Origin: Methanomassiliicoccaceae archaeon DOK
GTDB taxonomy: Archaea; Thermoplasmatota; Thermoplasmata; Methanomassiliicoccales; Methanomethylophilaceae
Reading direction: 5' to 3'
Length of the DNA stretch: 64,000 nt
Assembly: GCA_009911715.1 (NCBI GenBank)
Contig: CP047880.1
Span: 558,001 to 622,000 of the forward strand
Part shown: positions 6,556 through 15,895 of the stretch, in pieces
Layout: each line of letters opens with the position of its first letter
How positions within the stretch are numbered: position 1 is the stretch's first letter
Notes under the pieces: model-generated
What the model was told of the DNA's origin: nothing
Seen by the model: the letters and a program-made list of their open reading frames with translations, nothing else
Database searches by the model: none
Position numbers and translations under genes: made by a program

Positions 6556-9500
6556 GATTGAGAACTCTCGTATCTGACAACACTCTCAAACAGCTCCTCA
6601 GAAGACGCGGATACCGGATGTAATCGAGAACTCTCGTATTTGACAACACTCTCAAACTTTCGGCAAATTATTCCCGAAAATGCACAAGATCGAGAACTCT
6701 CGTATTTGACAACACTCTCAAACCATCCCATCTCTTGATCGCCTCTTCGCGTGGATCGAGAACTCTCGTATTTGACAACACTCTCAAACGGACTGATGGC
6801 TGACGGGCCCGAGGACCTCGATCGAGAACTCTCGTATTTGACAACACTCTCAAACTACCCCATGCGGTTTTACCCGCATTTCCCAGATCGAGAACTCTCG
6901 TATTTACAACACTCTCAAACTCGTGCCGGTGTAGGATTTCTCGATAGTGAGATCGAGAACTCTCGTATTTGACAACACTCTCAAACATGACGACATAGCC
7001 AAGCCTCTCCAGTCCAGATCGAGAACTCTCGTATTTGACAACACTCTCAAACCACCACGATGAGCAGCGGGATGATGTTGATGATCGAGAACTCTCGTAT
7101 TTGACAACACTCTCAAACACGCCGAGTAGTCGTTGATCCTGATCGCGTGATCGAGAACTCTCGTATTTGACAACACTCTCAAACAAGGTTCAGTGTGCAT
7201 GGTGGTTCGACTATGATCGAGAACTCTCGTATTTGACAACACTCTCAAACGCATTAGATTCCAGTGGATTGGGATGTCATGATCGAGAACTCTCGTATTT
7301 GACAACACTCTCAAACCTCACCGTTCCACGTAACGCCCTTGTAGGAGATCGAGAACTCTCGTATTTGACAACACTCTCAAACCCGTTCGCCACCGCTGTC
7401 TGACAGTCTCCAGATCGAGAACTCTCGTATTTGACAACACTCTCAAACAAATGACGGGCATGTATGAGAGCCTGAATGGATCGAGAACTCTCGTATTTGA
7501 CAACACTCTCAAACGCGTTCGTCTGGAACCTGAAGCTGAATGAAGATCGAGAACTCTCGTATTTGACAACACTCTCAAACGATGTCCTGCACGTTCCCCC
7601 AGTCCTGCGACGATCGAGAACTCTCGTATTTGACAACACTCTCAAACACGATCTCGGCGATCAGTTCGGCGTCACTCGATCGAGAACTCTCGTATTTGAC
7701 AACACTCTCAAACCGAACCTCTGCCGGTTGTTCTGATCTCCATAGATCGAGAACTCTCGTATTTGACAACACTCTCAAACCTGATGCACACCCCTAACAT
7801 GCCGTTCTCGGATCGAGAACTCTCGTATTTGACAACACTCTCAAACGGATGATCAATGGGAAGGAGTCCTTTCCCTGATCGAGAACTCTCGTATTTGACA
7901 ACACTCTCAAACAAGACATGATGGTGAAAGGATGCGTTTCGAGATCGAGAACTCTCGTATTTGACAACACTCTCAAACAAAGAAGCAGAACAAAGACGGC
8001 AATCGCCGGATCGAGAACTCTCGTATTTGACAACACTCTCAAACATCATTCTCCGACTCGGACCATCCCAGAAAGATCGAGAACTCTCGTATTTGACAAC
8101 ACTCTCAAACACATACATCTACTTCCACGAGATAAAGAAGGATCGAGAACTCTCGTATTTGACAACACTCTCAAACAAACCAAAGAGGGGATGTTCGTGG
8201 CTTCATGATCGAGAACTCTCGTATTTGACAACACTCTCAAACTGAAGACAGCCTTCGACCTGAACGACGGTAGATCGAGAACTCTCGTATTTGACAACAC
8301 TCTCAAACCAAGCTTGTTCTGCTCTGTGGTCAAGTCATGATCGAGAACTCTCGTATTTGACAACACTCTCAAACGTGACAGGAAGGCATCGGAGTTCATC
8401 ATCCGATCGAGAACTCTCGTATTTGACAACACTCTCAAACATAGAGAGGGAGATGATTTCACACATCCCCGATCGAGAACTCTCGTATTTGACAACACTC
8501 TCAAACCGGCCACCGGTCCTCACGGCCGTCTTCGAAGATCGAGAACTCTCGTATTTGACAACACTCTCAAACCGAAGGCGTTCGGTTTCGTAGAACCTGA
8601 TCGATCGAGAACTCTCGTATTTGACAACACTCTCAAACCGCGCGCACGCGATTAAAACCAGTTATCGTGATCGAGAACTCTCGTATTTGACAACACTCTC
8701 AAACAAAATGGTCGTTTTGAAGCAATGATACAGGGATCGAGAACTCTCGTATTTGACAACACTCTCAAACGTGACCATCTTAACGGCGGTTCCTTCGATG
8801 GATCGAGAACTCTCGTATTTGACAACACTCTCAAACAGGTTATCGTAAGGATGCTCTCGAGATCGTGATCGAGAACTCTCGTATTTGACAACACTCTCAA
8901 ACCCACTTCCAATCTTCACACCACCAAGCGTAGATCGAGAACTCTCGTATTTGACAACACTCTCAAACCAGGCCGTTTTGGATAATCCGGATTTTCTCGA
9001 TCGAGAACTCTCGTATTTGACAACACTCTCAAACATGGTTCGATGTTTACCACGGTCTACAATGGATCGAGAACTCTCGTATTTGACAACACTCTCAAAC
9101 GGTCCGGCGTGTACGTCCCCGTCCCCTCTCGATCGAGAACTCTCGTATTTGACAACACTCTCAAACAGGCCGAGAGGCATCGGATCATCTTCACCGGATC
9201 GAGAACTCTCGTATTTGACAACACTCTCAAACTCGGAATCGACAGCCAGGACGCATTCCAGAGATCGAGAACTCTCGTATTTGACAACACTCTCAAACAG
9301 AACACAAACTGGACAAGATCTAACCGCCGATCGAGAACTCTCGTATTTGACAACACTCTCAAACCTTATGAACGGCTTTTTGGATAACAACCGCGATCGA
9401 GAACTCTCGTATTTGACAACACTCTCAAACGCATGTCATCGTATGCCATCTTACCTCATCGATCGAGAACTCTCGTATTTGACAACACTCTCAAACCATG

Positions 9501-9826
9501 CGCCACGTCTCCCAGATCCGTGGGCAGATCGAGAACTCTCGTATTTGACAACACTCTCAAACAACCTACCTAACCTTGTTCCGATGAAGATTGATCGAGA
9601 ACTCTCGTATTTGACAACACTCTCAAACCACTATCTCGTCGCCCTCTTCATCCCTCTTGATCGAGAACTCTCGTATTTGACAACACTCTCAAACGGAATT
9701 CCTCGGTATCATCAGTCATAAGGAGATCGAGAACTCTCGTATTTGACAACACTCTCAAACACATCTCAGAACCTCCCGACCTTGACGGTCGATCGAGAAC
9801 TCTCGTATTTGACAACACTCTCAAAC
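6556..9826 (-). CRISPR. Type II-A CRISPR array, 50 repeats and 49 spacers
   Basis: Fifty 36-base repeats, mostly at a 66-base period, give 49 spacers: 47 of 30 bases and two of 31 (7581-7611 and 7714-7744). Read on the minus strand the repeat starts GTTTGAGAGTGTTGTC and ends with the palindrome CGAGAGTTCTCG followed by ATC. From about 6951 to 9826 all repeats appear identical. The low-coordinate end is degenerate: the repeat at 6556 has two substitutions, that at 6622 differs at its outer base, and that at 6886 lacks one G. Degeneracy marks the old, leader-distal end, so new spacers enter at 9826 beside csn2. No AT-rich leader separates csn2 from the array. I saw no spacer clearly matching elsewhere in the window, but did not search exhaustively. 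Confidence 0.98.
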
Positions 9827-10510
9827 CTCAAATATGTTGTCACGTGGAAAAAGCACTATCTCGCATTGATCTGAGTCGATTATTACTGCTGGATGAGTGT
9901 GGTCAGTGAATCTGCTGTTCACCATTAATACGGGAGTTTGAAGGTATATGATGTTTCTCAAGAGTTCTCTGTATCTTTCTTCGGACATGTATTCTGAGAT
10001 ATTGACCATTACCACCAGCCTGTATTTTGTGTATTTCCCAACCAAACGTATGAAATCGTAGACCCTTTCATCGAGGTTGTGACTCTCTGAGAACCTGAAC
10101 TGCAAGGCCTTGACTATCTCGGATGCGGTGGGCTCTGTCAATTCGAATTCCGTTTCAATCTCTGCAGCAATATTGCACATGTGGCTTCTCAGGTCGCCCA
10201 GAAGCTCTGAGGTGCGAACATAATAGTTTTCTGAAAGTGCATTGGTAGTCAGTGTCTGTGTGAATCCACTCAGTATCTCCTTTCTATTTGGGTTTGCATC
10301 GAAGGGCCCCATGGAAAGCAATACTGATTTGTGAAACTCATGGATCACTCCGTTGGATGACAGTACAAACCGTCCATCGAATCCCCGAATTTGATCAATC
10401 ATTTCTGACATTAATTTTCCTAGGAAATCAGGGTTTTCGACAATCAGTTGCCAAACAGGCGAGATGTCAAAATCCATGCATTCAGATAGCAAATAATGGC
10501 TAAGTTTCAA
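9821..10510 (-). CDS. csn2: Csn2, type II-A spacer-acquisition protein
   Basis: A 229-residue protein in the canonical fourth position of a type II-A operon. The N-terminus 'MKLSHYLLSECMDFDI' and the segment 'LMSEMIDQIRGFDGRFVLSS' fit the Csn2 family; Csn2 forms a tetrameric ring that binds DNA ends during spacer acquisition. Length fits (about 220 residues in streptococci). The start is TTG 10510, overlapping the cas2 stop as TTGA. The gene end is unusual: the last codons read ATA TTT GAG GTT TGA, and the stop plus the codon before it lie within the first CRISPR repeat (9821-9826). The gene is AT-richer than the host background. Confidence 0.85.
   Translation of the reverse strand: MKLSHYLLSECMDFDISPVWQLIVENPDFLGKLMSEMIDQIRGFDGRFVLSSNGVIHEFHKSVLLSMGPFDANPNRKEILSGFTQTLTTNALSENYYVRTSELLGDLRSHMCNIAAEIETEFELTEPTASEIVKALQFRFSESHNLDERVYDFIRLVGKYTKYRLVVMVNISEYMSEERYRELLRNIIYLQTPVLMVNSRFTDHTHPAVIIDSDQCEIVLFPRDNIFEV
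9827..9833 (-). promoter_or_regulatory. Leader-anchoring motif ATTTGAG inside csn2
   Basis: On the minus strand the seven bases directly before the first repeat are ATTTGAG. The same motif at the leader-repeat junction directs polarised spacer integration in one group of streptococcal type II-A systems (established knowledge). Here it overlaps the codons for the last Ile-Phe-Glu of Csn2, so the leader function appears embedded in coding sequence. I see no promoter that must lie here. Confidence 0.6.
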
Positions 10511-10827
10511 AGTACCACGAACCGGTCTAAGGTATCTAAGATCTCTTTTTGGGATTCGCCGACCAGGAACTCCATTTCCTGGTATTGTCTTTCAGAAACG
10601 GAAAGCAGAATCACGTTGCCTGTTTTCGGACGGTTGTTACGGAGATTCTTCCTGACGGTCTCGGCAGCAGTCGCATTTATGGCTATTTTAGAATACACAG
10701 ATTCCTGAATCATGATGAATCCCTGCATCTGCAGGTATTTCCGGAAACGTGTATACTGACGTCTGTCTTCAGCTGTTTTCACAGGGAGATCGAAGTACAC
10801 TATCAATCTCATCGCTCTTACTCTCAT
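10507..10827 (-). CDS. cas2: Cas2, type II-A
   Basis: A 106-residue Cas2 with the N-terminal 'MRLIVYFDLPVKTAEDRRQY' strand and the type II 'FRKYLQMQGFIMIQESVYSK' segment. Cas2 is the structural dimer that bridges two Cas1 dimers in the spacer integrase. I chose ATG 10827 by alignment with streptococcal Cas2, whose start also precedes the MR-hydrophobic strand by a few residues; ATG 10812 is possible. It overlaps the 3' end of cas1 by 59 bases and its TGA overlaps the TTG start of csn2, so the operon is tightly coupled. Confidence 0.92.
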   Translation of the reverse strand: MRVRAMRLIVYFDLPVKTAEDRRQYTRFRKYLQMQGFIMIQESVYSKIAINATAAETVRKNLRNNRPKTGNVILLSVSERQYQEMEFLVGESQKEILDTLDRFVVL

Positions 10828-11689
10828 AGTGGCAGAACCTAAGCCCGAAAACATCTCTAGAATCCAGGGAATCAACAACACTTTTCACATAAATGCGCAA
10901 GGCGTTTCCGAGATACTGCGTTTTTCCATTCATTTCCACGGTGCGATTCAGGATGGATGCGAGCATCCGTTTTGATTCTGGAGACAATCCCTTATCAGAC
11001 ATGTCTAGTACCATTCTGTCCACAAGTGGGCGAAGGGGCTCCATTAAATCACTCCCCAGATTGTAGTGGTTGGAGGCGTTGTCATGGAACACCCCCAACT
11101 CTGTTGAATATCCTAGAGACACGATTTCACGGTTGACTGCAGACAGTAGGATTGCATATCCGTAGTTCAGCAGGGAGTTAATCTCGCAACTGTTCCTTCT
11201 GGAGAAATCATCACCGAACAACGTGTTGAAATACACCTTGGCTGCATGACCTTCGCGGTTCGTACAATCATTGAACTCCACCGATTCTGCGTATCTGCGA
11301 AGAAGTTCAGCCCTGTCATAATCAAATCTCTCCAGAAGGTCGGCCTGGCAGTTGATTTTCTCCGATACAATCTGTGACCAGATTCTTCCCTTGGTTTCAT
11401 CGTCCCACTAGATCTGTGCTCTCAGTTTCCCCGGAGAGTCATGGCAGCCGTACAACGGCGTCATTTCTGACATGGGATTATGCATCTCATCGCAGAAGAT
11501 CACCTTGATATTTCTTCTGCACAGTTCACACAGCAACATCGACGTGAGGGAGACTGCAGTGCTTTCGATCATGAGCACCGATATCTCGGACAGATGTATC
11601 TTCCGGACATCGGTGCCCCTGATGACCAGATATCCAAGTTTCAGGTCGAGCTTGGAATTACTGGATATGACCACGGTTCTCCAGGTCAT
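10769..11689 (-). CDS. cas1: Cas1 integrase with one in-frame amber codon (candidate pyrrolysine protein)
   Basis: One frame from ATG 11689 to the stop at 10769 encodes a full-length type II-A Cas1 of 306 residues if the TAG at 11410-11408 (codon 94) is read through. Before it stand 'TWRTVVISSNSKLDL' and 'MTPLYGCHDSPGKLRAQI'; after it the same frame continues 'WDDETKGRIWSQIV' and 'NREGHAAKVYFNTLFGDDF'. The join matches streptococcal Cas1, where a Ser precedes the Trp. The presumed active-site residues (Glu in NREGHAA, His in GVFHDN, Glu in DLMEPLRP) all lie after the amber codon, so the 93-residue product would be inactive. In Methanomassiliicoccales TAG encodes pyrrolysine; a real nonsense mutation is the alternative. 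The start is one base after the cas9 stop. Confidence 0.9.
11408..11410 (-). other. In-frame TAG in cas1
   Basis: The codon between Ile93 and Trp95 of Cas1 is TAG on the minus strand. Both sides are in the same frame with no indel, and conserved Cas1 sequence continues without a gap. No other in-frame stop interrupts the 306-codon frame. Confidence 0.9.
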
Positions 11690-11690
11690 G

Positions 11691-14600
11691 TCAGTTTATT
11701 CTCACTTTATTCTCCCAAAGGCCGGAAGGCGACTGGTTGATGATGAACACTTCTGCAGATTTCCTGTCGGGAAGTTTCTTGTTTACCTGAATCCTTCCCG
11801 CGACCGTAGATCCTTTGATTGCTTTGAGATTGGCGTTTGAGTTGTTGCAGTGGAAGGCAAGGAGTATCGAGTTCAACAAAGATGCCTGCTCCAAGCAATC
11901 GAGCTCTTCGAATTCGATCCTACCAGAATGGAGGTTCTCACAGAATGCGGTCATGAACTGCTCATATGGTTTTGAACTGGCCCTCTGCGCCAGATAATCA
12001 TAGAGATCCATGTTCATGTCCTGGGTTATTCCGTAGTATTCTGCTGGTCTGATAACCCTGTCCTTACGATCCGAATCGAATTTGAAGAGGATTTTACAAT
12101 ACTTCATTCTTGTATCATCCATCAGGAGGTTGACGGCGTTGTAGAACAGGATGCTGTCGCCAGTTCTTCCACCTATATGCATCCTGAATCCGTTCCATTC
12201 GAAGAGGGTGTTTAACCTGATTACGGGAATGATTACTTCTACGTCCTTTCCCATTGTCTCGCTGTGATATCTGCGTATGGAATCCGGTTTGTCGATTGCA
12301 CCCAGCATGTAAACCGGCACGACTTCTAAGGACCGGATGGTTCTTTTCTTGTCTTTGTATTCCACAAGGGAATAGCAGGCTCCCGTTGGTTTATTGTACC
12401 CACCATACTTTTCGGTATCCATCCCTCTCTTCCTTTCGATGGCGTTTCCTTTAGCTCTCACAAGGTTGTCATCGAAAAATGCGCCCTTCTTTACAAACGG
12501 TTGTTTGGTGAACAGTATGTTGTTGCGTCTCATATTCTTTAGAACAATCCTCATGCTTCCATTTTCCCCGGGTATCCATGCGGTGTTTCCGCTCCTGGAG
12601 ACTTCGCTATCGTACATCTTGGAAAGATTGTAATGTTCGCCAGAGTCGATAAAATTCCGATAGTCCTTGGTGAATTTGGTGTCATACACGTTACCAACAA
12701 CAATATTCAAGTATGCGTCCTTAGCGTGATGATAGTCGTTTATGGATCTGCATTTGATCATGACGTCCGATCCGCTGTTTTGGCGGAATTCTGACACGAG
12801 ACCTGCTTTGACATACACAATCTCTGTGTCTCCTCCGAAGAGCCTTCCAAGAATCTCTACGGCCCCTTTGACAGATTGGCTAGTCTCCACCAGCTGACGG
12901 CTGATGAATCTGCTGAGTTCGTCCTGGCTGAAATCATCTTTTCTGACTAGGCGTGAATATTTCTCCGAAGTGATGTACTTCTTATCACGCAGGATATCCC
13001 ACATGGGCTTCATGCTCATCTGTACTTCGGGAGCTATGGGGAATCTGTTGCTCTTCTCTGAGTTGCATTTCTTGCATGAAAGGACCAGATTGTTGTGGAT
13101 GCTGTCATCCTTGATTAGTGACTGAGGGTAGATGTGGTCTCTGTCAACGGAGTCTGTGTTTCCAAGTTCCTCTATGTCGATTTTGCGACCACAATACATG
13201 CATCTGCCCAGCTGAGTGTAGTAGAGATACATATTGCGACTTTTGAGGTCTGCATCACTTCTGCTTTCCAGATCTGTTAACCATTGGGAATCCTCCCGAC
13301 AGGCCTTGTACAACTGGATCAACGTGTTTCTCCTGGATTCGGTGCGTTTCTTCTTGGAAGGGTCTATGTTCTGACGTGTCGTCTCCACGAAAACCTTCTT
13401 CGGAGGATGTCCGATGAATTTCATGACATCCTTTGCCACACATACGGTTCTCCATATGCCACGTTTAACAGCAGGAGAGACATACAACCTGTCCACAGAT
13501 CCGTAATCGATGTCTGCATCTGTCGTCATCTCCTGATTAATTTTCTCAATCTGTTTCTCGAATCCATATCTGGATAGTACTTCCATCAGGTTGTACTGGG
13601 TGTTCTCCATGATGTCCAGGATACAGGCATCTCTGCCGAGTTCAGGACTGAATTCATGGAGTCCTGTCAGGAACCTTTTGGACAGCCTCCCCCAGCCTTC
13701 GAATCCGAGTTTGGCAAGCCTTCCTATCTCTTCGTCGGTTAGACGATCGCCGAAATCCGTCTTCAGTTTCCTTCTGATATCTTGGGCTTCTTCGAAAACC
13801 GTTACGATGCGGATAATCTCCTCGCAAAAGTCTCTATCATTTGCCTTCTGTCCGATTATTTCTTTCATAATCGTCAAAGGTCTGAGGGATGTTTTGATGT
13901 CATTATCCATTCCTGTGATCTCTGCATCCTCTCTGCCGTCCAATACTCCGATACTAACAAGATATTTTGATACGGCGTTCTTGGTCACGCGACCTTTTCT
14001 ATCGGGATTTTCGAACAGGTCAGAGACCATGCGTTTTTTGATGTCGACAGGTACACGGTCACCATTGACACGTATGTTGTTCAGTTCATTGTATAATGTG
14101 AAGTACGAATACACGATGGAATTTTTGGGAAGGACCTTCTCTCCAATCATGTATGTGCACATGCTTGTGAGATTCTCCATGAACGCTTCTGCACTTGCTT
14201 CTCTGTCTACCACGTCATCGAAGTTCCAGGGTCTCACCGGGGTGTTGGATTTGCGGACAGCCCATGATCTGTTTACAGCACCCATGGGTGCTGATGTATT
14301 CAGAGGCCCTACATAATATGGAATTCTGAAGCCCTGAATCATGATTACCTTGTCAGCCGTTGTCAGCCCATCCTCGTTCACAGTTTTTAGGAATGGGTAG
14401 AAGCGGGATGCGTTTTCAAGGATCTTGATCATCTCATCTTTATGGATTGTGTACGGGAACACACTGTTAGTCTTTGAGGTCTGTTTAGGCATGAACGTCC
14501 CGTCGGAGAGGCGCGTCATCATATCGTTGTATTCTGGATCGTTTTTGGCTTCGGTTTTTGATAAGACGGACAGGCAGAATTTACAGAATTCCTCCTGATT

Positions 14601-15701
14601 GCAGCTTTTCTCGGGTTTGATCTTTCCACATTTGCCAGAGTAACTGCAGTAGTTACCCATGATAGTGCCACTTTTGAAGACATCCTTGTACATGTCGCTG
14701 GCATACTTACGAACCGCCTTTTTCAGCAGAGCCAGATCCGAGCGGTGCTGCTCATACGATGCAATTTTTGCATACGATATGGAGCGATGTCCTTTCAGAA
14801 GAGATGATAGTACTGACCAGTTGTACACCTGCTTGACGATTCTCAGAGTGTTCCACTGGTCTTCGTCTAAGATGTCTTCGAGTTCTGCCATCTTGTCTTC
14901 GATGGAATTATCGGAGAATGATATGCCGTCAGATTCTATGGAATCGTCCTCAAAGATGTCTGAAGGTTTTACCTTGGCTCCTGCCAGAAGCTCTCCGAGT
15001 TTGCTCTCTGGTTTAGTGGAACAGCCAAGAGCCTCCTTCACGAGTCTTTTGCGGTCTGTCACACGTATGTTGCGATCAGTGAGGATTCCATTCAGAATCT
15101 CATAATCGGAGACATTCAGATCCATGCCGTACTTCATCACATCCTGAATCAGTAAGTCGATGATTTCCTTGAAGTCAGGAATGCCGTCTGAACTGATGCT
15201 ACTGAAGATGAAATGGCCCCTGAATTTGATGATGTGATGTAGAGCAAGGTAAACAAGCCTGATGTCTGGCTTCTCATCTGTTTCCATCAGGAATTTGCGA
15301 AGATGATAGACGGTTGGGAATTTCGAGTGGAATTCTTTGTCTGTGAAGTTCTTGTCGTTAAACAAGCTGTTGCTTTGTTTGATAGTTTTATCTTCAACAT
15401 GCAGTCCGCTCTCGTCCAGTCTCTGGAAGAAAGAGGGGTCTATCTTGCAGACCTCTTCATCAAACAGTTCGCGAAGGAGTGCCACTCTTTGTTTGCGACG
15501 TTCTAGTCTGCGTCTTGCACATCTGTGCATTCTTCTTTCGGCGGCTGTTTTCCCTTCTTCGAAGAGATGTACACCCCACATCGCTTTTCCTCCGCATTCG
15601 AGAATGTTGTACTCCGGGTCTGTGGCTGCCCAACCCAGGGAGCTCGTTCCGATGTCGAGTCCGAGATAGTACTCGTAATCCGCGATATTTAGTCTATTCA
15701 T
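11691..15701 (-). CDS. cas9: Cas9 RNA-guided endonuclease, type II-A
   Basis: A 1336-residue Cas9, close in length to the S. pyogenes enzyme. All nuclease motifs are present: RuvC-I 'YYLGLDIGTSSLGWA' (Asp16), the arginine-rich bridge helix 'RRMHRCARRRLERRKQR', RuvC-II 'KKVFVETTRQN' (Glu773), HNH 'DRDHIYPQS' (His856) with Asn880, and RuvC-III 'NDYHHAKDAYLN' (His992, Asp995). It should cleave both strands of target DNA guided by crRNA and tracrRNA. The HNH region has two CxxC pairs (Cys834/837 and Cys876/879), a probable zinc site absent from SpCas9. The start ATG 15701 has a TATA box ~25 bases upstream, implying a leaderless mRNA. AT-richer than flanking genes, consistent with transfer from Firmicutes-like bacteria (inference). 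Confidence 0.98.
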   Translation of the reverse strand: MNRLNIADYEYYLGLDIGTSSLGWAATDPEYNILECGGKAMWGVHLFEEGKTAAERRMHRCARRRLERRKQRVALLRELFDEEVCKIDPSFFQRLDESGLHVEDKTIKQSNSLFNDKNFTDKEFHSKFPTVYHLRKFLMETDEKPDIRLVYLALHHIIKFRGHFIFSSISSDGIPDFKEIIDLLIQDVMKYGMDLNVSDYEILNGILTDRNIRVTDRKRLVKEALGCSTKPESKLGELLAGAKVKPSDIFEDDSIESDGISFSDNSIEDKMAELEDILDEDQWNTLRIVKQVYNWSVLSSLLKGHRSISYAKIASYEQHRSDLALLKKAVRKYASDMYKDVFKSGTIMGNYCSYSGKCGKIKPEKSCNQEEFCKFCLSVLSKTEAKNDPEYNDMMTRLSDGTFMPKQTSKTNSVFPYTIHKDEMIKILENASRFYPFLKTVNEDGLTTADKVIMIQGFRIPYYVGPLNTSAPMGAVNRSWAVRKSNTPVRPWNFDDVVDREASAEAFMENLTSMCTYMIGEKVLPKNSIVYSYFTLYNELNNIRVNGDRVPVDIKKRMVSDLFENPDRKGRVTKNAVSKYLVSIGVLDGREDAEITGMDNDIKTSLRPLTIMKEIIGQKANDRDFCEEIIRIVTVFEEAQDIRRKLKTDFGDRLTDEEIGRLAKLGFEGWGRLSKRFLTGLHEFSPELGRDACILDIMENTQYNLMEVLSRYGFEKQIEKINQEMTTDADIDYGSVDRLYVSPAVKRGIWRTVCVAKDVMKFIGHPPKKVFVETTRQNIDPSKKKRTESRRNTLIQLYKACREDSQWLTDLESRSDADLKSRNMYLYYTQLGRCMYCGRKIDIEELGNTDSVDRDHIYPQSLIKDDSIHNNLVLSCKKCNSEKSNRFPIAPEVQMSMKPMWDILRDKKYITSEKYSRLVRKDDFSQDELSRFISRQLVETSQSVKGAVEILGRLFGGDTEIVYVKAGLVSEFRQNSGSDVMIKCRSINDYHHAKDAYLNIVVGNVYDTKFTKDYRNFIDSGEHYNLSKMYDSEVSRSGNTAWIPGENGSMRIVLKNMRRNNILFTKQPFVKKGAFFDDNLVRAKGNAIERKRGMDTEKYGGYNKPTGACYSLVEYKDKKRTIRSLEVVPVYMLGAIDKPDSIRRYHSETMGKDVEVIIPVIRLNTLFEWNGFRMHIGGRTGDSILFYNAVNLLMDDTRMKYCKILFKFDSDRKDRVIRPAEYYGITQDMNMDLYDYLAQRASSKPYEQFMTAFCENLHSGRIEFEELDCLEQASLLNSILLAFHCNNSNANLKAIKGSTVAGRIQVNKKLPDRKSAEVFIINQSPSGLWENKVRIN

Positions 15702-15720: not shown

Positions 15721-15732
15721 TTATTTATATAG
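15721..15732 (-). promoter_or_regulatory. TATA box for the cas9 operon
   Basis: On the minus strand CTATATAAATAA is centred about 26 bases upstream of the cas9 ATG, the normal archaeal TATA-to-start distance, so transcription should begin at or next to the start codon. It would drive cas9-cas1-cas2-csn2 and perhaps the array. Confidence 0.7.
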
Positions 15733-15747: not shown

Positions 15748-15794
15748 TTAGAATCAAGGACCTAAGTACAAATAATTAATTTTATCTATTATTG

Positions 15795-15895
15795 CATACA
15801 ATACAAGTTCGACAACACGAGTTCAAATAAGGCATAACCGGAATCACCCGAAAGGGTCCCGCAATTGGCGGGGATCTCGTTTGTCAATATTTTTT
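15795..15895 (+). ncRNA. tracrRNA of the type II-A system
   Basis: The anti-repeat is GACAACAC (15811-15818), GAGT (15819-15822), TCAAAT (15823-15828). Against the repeat start this gives an 8-bp upper stem (GUGUUGUC:GACAACAC), a bulge of GA opposite GAGU, and a 6-bp lower stem (GUUUGA:UCAAAU, one G-U pair). This equals the S. pyogenes layout (6-bp lower stem, 2/4-nt bulge). Next comes AAGGCATAACCG (15829-15840), nexus-like, then hairpin ACCC-GAAA-GGGT (15846-15857), hairpin CCCGC-AATTG-GCGGG (15858-15872) and a six-T run at 15890-15895 as terminator. The 5' end is approximate. It lies between cas9 and the nuclease-helicase gene and is transcribed away from cas9. Confidence 0.88.

Follow-up and report, generated by a model that had tools for sequence, protein, structure and literature searches.

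The window, i.e. the whole 64,000-nt stretch of DNA analysed, belongs to the complete, single-contig genome (1.889 Mb) of a Methanomethylophilaceae archaeon and contains a complete type II-A CRISPR-Cas locus on its minus strand, hereafter G000. The cas9, cas1, cas2 and csn2 genes are held in one operon whose neighbouring elements overlap or almost touch each other, and all four score above the curated cut-offs, cas1 with its in-frame TAG read through (Table 1).

Table 1. Features of the type II-A locus, in window coordinates
Feature	Position	Strand	Remarks
CRISPR array	6556..9826	-	50 repeats (GTTTGAGAGTGTTGTCAAATACGAGAGTTCTCGATC), spacers of 30-31 nt
GTTTGA	9821..9826	-	Opening 6 nt of repeat 1; supplies the last Val codon and the stop of csn2
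csn2	9821..10510	-	229 aa; TIGR01866 E=6e-29, PF09711 E=9e-14
ATTTGAG	9827..9833	-	Leader-anchoring motif; leader end of type II-A Group 1
Leader-like DNA coding for part of Csn2 (...PRDNIFE)	9827..9850	-	Homologous DNA is a non-coding leader in a relative (G019)
csn2 start		-	TTG, shared with the cas2 stop as TTGA
cas2	10507..10830	-	TIGR01573 E=3e-21
cas1 (type II)	10769..11689	-	In-frame TAG; TIGR03639 E=7e-90, 301 bits with TAG read through
cas9	11691..15701	-	1336 aa; TIGR01865 E=5e-271
TATA box TATATAAA/TTTATATA	15724..15731	Usable in both directions	Between cas9 and the tracrRNA candidate
tracrRNA candidate	15781..15895	+	RF02348 match, plus an anti-repeat-like stretch TTCGACAACACGAGTTCAAAT recognized by eye

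The array, which is the only one with its repeat in the whole genome, is made of 49 repeats of 36 nt, one of 35 nt and 49 spacers. The 36-bp repeat begins with GTTT and ends with C, as in type II-A systems. Substituted repeats are found solely at the end far from csn2, with two changes at 6591-6556 and one at 6657-6622, the rest being perfect save the 35-nt copy. This confinement of the substitutions to the 6556 end indicates that the young, leader end of the array is the one next to csn2, and the earlier note had indeed placed the leader end there. The shorter repeat (6886-6920, minus strand) has lost one base (GTTTGAGAGTGTTG-TAAATACG) and lies near the old end of the array. Searches with the three newest spacers gave no protospacer match in viral contigs.

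On the minus strand, the junction between gene and array reads CCA CGT GAC AAC ATA TTT GAG / GTT TGA GAGTGTTG, the slash marking the start of repeat 1 (9826-9791). The Val codon GTT (9826-9824) and the stop codon TGA of csn2 (9823-9821, nt 4-6 of repeat 1) both fall within the repeat, and the position that the earlier note had given for them is exact to the base. ATTTGAG (9833-9827) stands immediately before the repeat and lies within the csn2 codons ATA TTT GAG, so that the last Csn2 codons do coincide with the proposed integration-anchor motif. ATTTGAG directly followed by GTTT is the leader end described for Group 1 among the type II-A systems (PMC5382924; Van Orden 2017), a group of 87 out of 167 loci in 42 genera (PMC5382924). 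In Streptococcus thermophilus, the 10 bp of leader nearest the repeat, plus no more than 5 bp of the repeat itself, direct integration (PMC6895254). The integration signal is thus already known, and what is new is that it is coding.

The CRISPR1 locus of S. thermophilus, also of Group 1, resembles that of the window in its cas9-cas1-cas2-csn2 order (PMC5382924, PMC6895254), in its 36-bp repeat starting with GTTT, in the ATTTGAG ahead of repeat 1 and in having its oldest repeats at the far end. In contrast, the host is here an archaeon, the leader lies within the csn2 coding sequence, the csn2 stop lies in repeat 1, and Csn2 is short with a leader-encoded tail. This tail is predicted to be disordered and outside the fold: the AlphaFold2 model of the window Csn2 has high confidence as far as residue 220 or so, the pLDDT being below 50 for residues 225-229, and the Csn2 profile match stops near residue 218.

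Leader ends in the archaeal family

Cas9 was found in 8 of the 102 genomes of the family, and the csn2-array junction was obtained from six. ATTTGAG precedes repeat 1 in all six loci, and both G000 and G034, the latter from another genus of the family, code through it. The csn2 products of these two end alike (...GNLFEV and stop in G034), their overall identity being 33%. In the four others (G019, G114, G073 and G125) the leader is non-coding DNA between csn2 and the array, which is the usual arrangement, although no stated requirement of Group 1. The G019 csn2 stops after CELNF, and the next 24 nt, ending with GGAAACCTATTTGAG, are non-coding; the G034 counterpart of GGAAACCTATTTGAG is the coding GGCAACCTATTTGAG. 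The csn2 genes of G114, G073 and G125 terminate where that of G019 does with respect to the fold, and are followed by leaders measuring 42, 33 and 72 nt, each ending with ATTTGAG. The comparison of these four loci with G000 and G034 shows that the leader end is conserved as DNA, coding or not. The view of the earlier note that there is no leader does not survive this comparison of junctions, as normal leaders of 24-72 nt with the same end are present in the relatives, the very observation that the note had named as refuting it. Nor is the csn2 end conserved for its own sake, since the G019 gene stops ahead of the leader and ATTTGAG is kept there as non-coding DNA. A premature G019 stop, reflecting decay, was considered and rejected, because its position is the end of the Csn2 core in G114, G073 and G125.

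In the Cas1 tree, the archaea form one group (support 96/87) in which G000 and G019 come together (99/92), with G034 outside; this tree is midpoint-rooted and its taxa are the closest matches only. Because G000 joins G019, the archaeal overlap implies either two losses of the stop or a stop regained in G019. Three of the four non-overlapped archaeal leaders (G019, G114 and G073; loci L013, L015 and L016) are in the csn2 frame and contain no stop ahead of the one in the repeat, a hint that the overlap is possibly more ancient than it seems. The csn2 frames of L015 and L016 look broken or shifted at their N-terminal side, that of L016 having only 164 codons. A further genome, G065, carries a Cas9-like gene (C1:723618-726356, L019) whose match to the window Cas9, at 35%, is confined to residues 23-941; no CRISPR array was detected in the 14-kb stretch around it.

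Junctions in Clostridia

A scan with the archaeal Cas1 alignment returned 80 loci, namely G019 and bacteria, nearly all of them Clostridia and mostly Lachnospiraceae; a scan of viral contigs found no Cas1 relative. The main survey comprises 73 measurable junctions, archaea included, and a second sample of 397 genomes provided 14 further distinct junctions with one more overlap (L130). Among the resulting 87 distinct junctions (6 archaeal, 81 bacterial), csn2 runs into the repeat in four: G000, G034, L032 and L130. The distance from the csn2 stop to the repeat has a median of 65 nt in the 73 loci and ranges from 24 to 241 nt besides three 6-nt overlaps. The last seven bases of the leader are ATTTGAG in 55 of these 73 loci and GTTTGAG or TTTTGAG in another 15. 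Such recurrence of ATTTGAG before repeat 1 in related loci, together with its identity to the published Group 1 leader end, places the window junction beyond chance.

The Lachnospiraceae and other clostridial loci (L026-L135) have a Cas1 49-56% identical to the archaeal query, repeats resembling the archaeal ones (GTTTGAGAGYNNTGT) and the same leader end. They differ in that the csn2 stop usually lies 33-241 nt before the repeat, the overlap being seen only in L032 and L130. These two clostridial loci are clearly related, with a near-identical repeat, and the Cas1 tree places L032 well away from the archaea. In the sister row of L032 in this tree (L054, support 99/86), csn2 ends with CIIDI-TAG and is followed by the non-coding stretch AACTTACAGCATTTACCA ... 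GTTCGGCGATAACC ... GAATTTGAG. A sense codon replaces this stop in L032 and L130, and the homologous DNA is coding, with the products ending in ...NLQHLPDVKFGENPDEFEV and ...NLRHLPDVKFGENPNGFEV, respectively. Leader capture can thus be directly seen here, since L054 stops at the old position and the same leader DNA is non-coding.

In the four overlapping loci, csn2 has no stop of its own and reads through the leader to the TGA in the repeat. The sequence ATTTGAG/GTTTGA can be read as FEV-stop or, in a different frame, as ATT-TGA, so that for two of the three frames the junction brings a csn2 gene that has lost its stop to an end. Five non-overlapping loci (G019/L025, L029, L092, G114 and G073) have a leader that is already in frame and free of stops ahead of that in the repeat, i.e. 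they are one mutation away from the overlap.

In L029, L034, L039, L042 and L053, the leader ends with ATTTGAGGTTTGAG/GTTTGAG, where leader end and repeat start form a tandem of 7 bp; slippage or mis-registered integration may have produced it.

Origin of the coding leader

We consider it highly probable that an ordinary, very short type II-A leader has been taken into the csn2 reading frame. The csn2 gene would have lost the stop that relatives have immediately downstream of the final strand of the Csn2 fold, and translation would run on through about 8-10 leader codons, ATTTGAG anchor included, to the TGA of GTTTGA. In the established two-step reaction, insertion of a spacer on the leader side of repeat 1 causes this repeat to be duplicated. 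By analogy with the published requirement for about 10 bp of leader, the overlapped sequence should suffice for integration at 9826, and each insertion at the leader end would, from published type II-A work, copy the repeat and leave the Val-stop of csn2 intact. The proposal of the earlier note that each insertion regenerates the csn2 stop holds as a matter of logic, all repeats starting with GTTTGA. Its further claim, that integration maintains the gene end, does not follow, as stop regeneration is a by-product and no demonstrated maintenance device.

The latter claim could nevertheless be developed into a distinct explanation, in which the system is leaderless and the coupling of gene end and integration site has been selected so that integration maintains the csn2 stop. 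The regeneration of the Val-stop from GTTTGA-starting repeats, the occurrence of the overlap in two lineages and the open in-frame leaders of three out of four non-overlapped archaeal loci would all suit such a coupling. We find it unlikely, as the leaders of relatives end in the same DNA without coding, and as G019 lacks the overlap yet groups with the window locus. Besides, the tail, which is predicted to be disordered, gives no sign of selection as a protein: of its codons that differ between L032 and L130, 5 are changed nonsynonymously and 1 synonymously, the core having 63 and 58 such codons. These changes suggest that the tail is not under selection as a protein, although the numbers are small and the contrast between codon positions is not significant (p=0.10); protein selection on the tail was not retained. 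A quite different explanation, to which only a very small probability can be given, is that of an annotation artefact, csn2 truly ending upstream and the frame being open into the repeat by chance. The end of the Csn2 profile near residue 218 would fit, and a single stop like that of G019 would end csn2 at this point. However, G000, G034, L032 and L130 all lack a stop codon from the end of the Csn2 core up to the repeat, and standard decoding must therefore reach GTTTGA. An upstream end would require recoding or a sequence error, and G000 comes from a complete single contig.

It might also be argued that the adaptation module is degenerate or inactive, the csn2 stop having been lost as adaptation became unimportant. 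The in-frame TAG in cas1 (11408-11410, minus strand) points in this direction and, if undecoded, would inactivate adaptation. Likewise, the leader end of L130 is altered to ATTTGAA, which is synonymous for the Csn2 Glu and breaks the integration motif, so that the overlap might accompany adaptation decay in some loci. Yet the genome encodes PylS, at 270 bits for a curated cut-off of 178, and UAG can thus be decoded as pyrrolysine; the TAG lies at a position occupied by Arg or Lys in relatives, and Cas1 reaches its 301 bits when it is read through. Judging from these sequence features, the codon is probably decoded as pyrrolysine, and the locus may therefore encode a pyrrolysine-containing Cas1 integrase. 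The 50 nearly identical repeats, with substitutions at the far end, also point to recent acquisition at the csn2 end. Degeneration of the module appears improbable for the window locus.

The capture of an ordinary leader by csn2 therefore remains the preferred explanation, and the locus represents a recurrent, apparently undescribed variant of a well-known system rather than a leaderless one. No description of a cas gene overlapping the first repeat was found in the literature searched, most subscription papers being outside its scope. In natural genomes, a type II-A leader can thus be very small and lie wholly inside a protein-coding gene, as the 10-bp requirement predicts. The arrangement is rare and has arisen in at least two lineages, the archaeal family and a separate lineage of gut bacteria. 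Annotation pipelines seeking an intergenic leader, or requiring a leader of at least 30 nt, would lose such loci.

Transcription of the array

Such a compact junction raises the question of how the array is transcribed with no room for a leader promoter, and of the consequences of translation into a CRISPR repeat. The 3' end of csn2 was searched for a TATA box that could serve the array, and this possibility was rejected, the best matches carrying two mismatches. With neither an intergenic gap nor a clear TATA box in this region, we infer that the array most likely shares a transcript with the cas9-cas1-cas2-csn2 operon. In type II-A systems, a leader-repeat hairpin has been reported to suppress extraneous crRNA (Liao et al. 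2022, as cited in PMC12080349 and PMC13187072). The csn2 3' end of the window can similarly form 9 bp with repeat 1 (TGACAACAT/GTGTTGTCA), with the difference that the leader RNA would be translated here. A csn2-encoded hairpin is not claimed, since shuffled leaders often equal this 9-bp helix (p 0.2-0.3). Over the 73 loci, matched leader-repeat pairs do pair better than mismatched ones (p=0.0002, uncorrected for relatedness).

It is conceivable, if very doubtful, that translation of csn2 into repeat 1 acts in crRNA biogenesis. Transcription of the array would then occur solely as the 3' extension of the cas operon, and terminating ribosomes would exclude the tracrRNA from repeat 1, thereby suppressing the useless, extraneous crRNA that is otherwise suppressed by the hairpin. 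The tracrRNA candidate itself comes from an RF02348 match at 15781-15879 (plus strand) of 22.7 bits, under the gathering score of 70. An exact, near-palindromic TATA box is present in the intergenic region between cas9 and this candidate, and is common to cas9 on the minus strand and the candidate on the plus strand.
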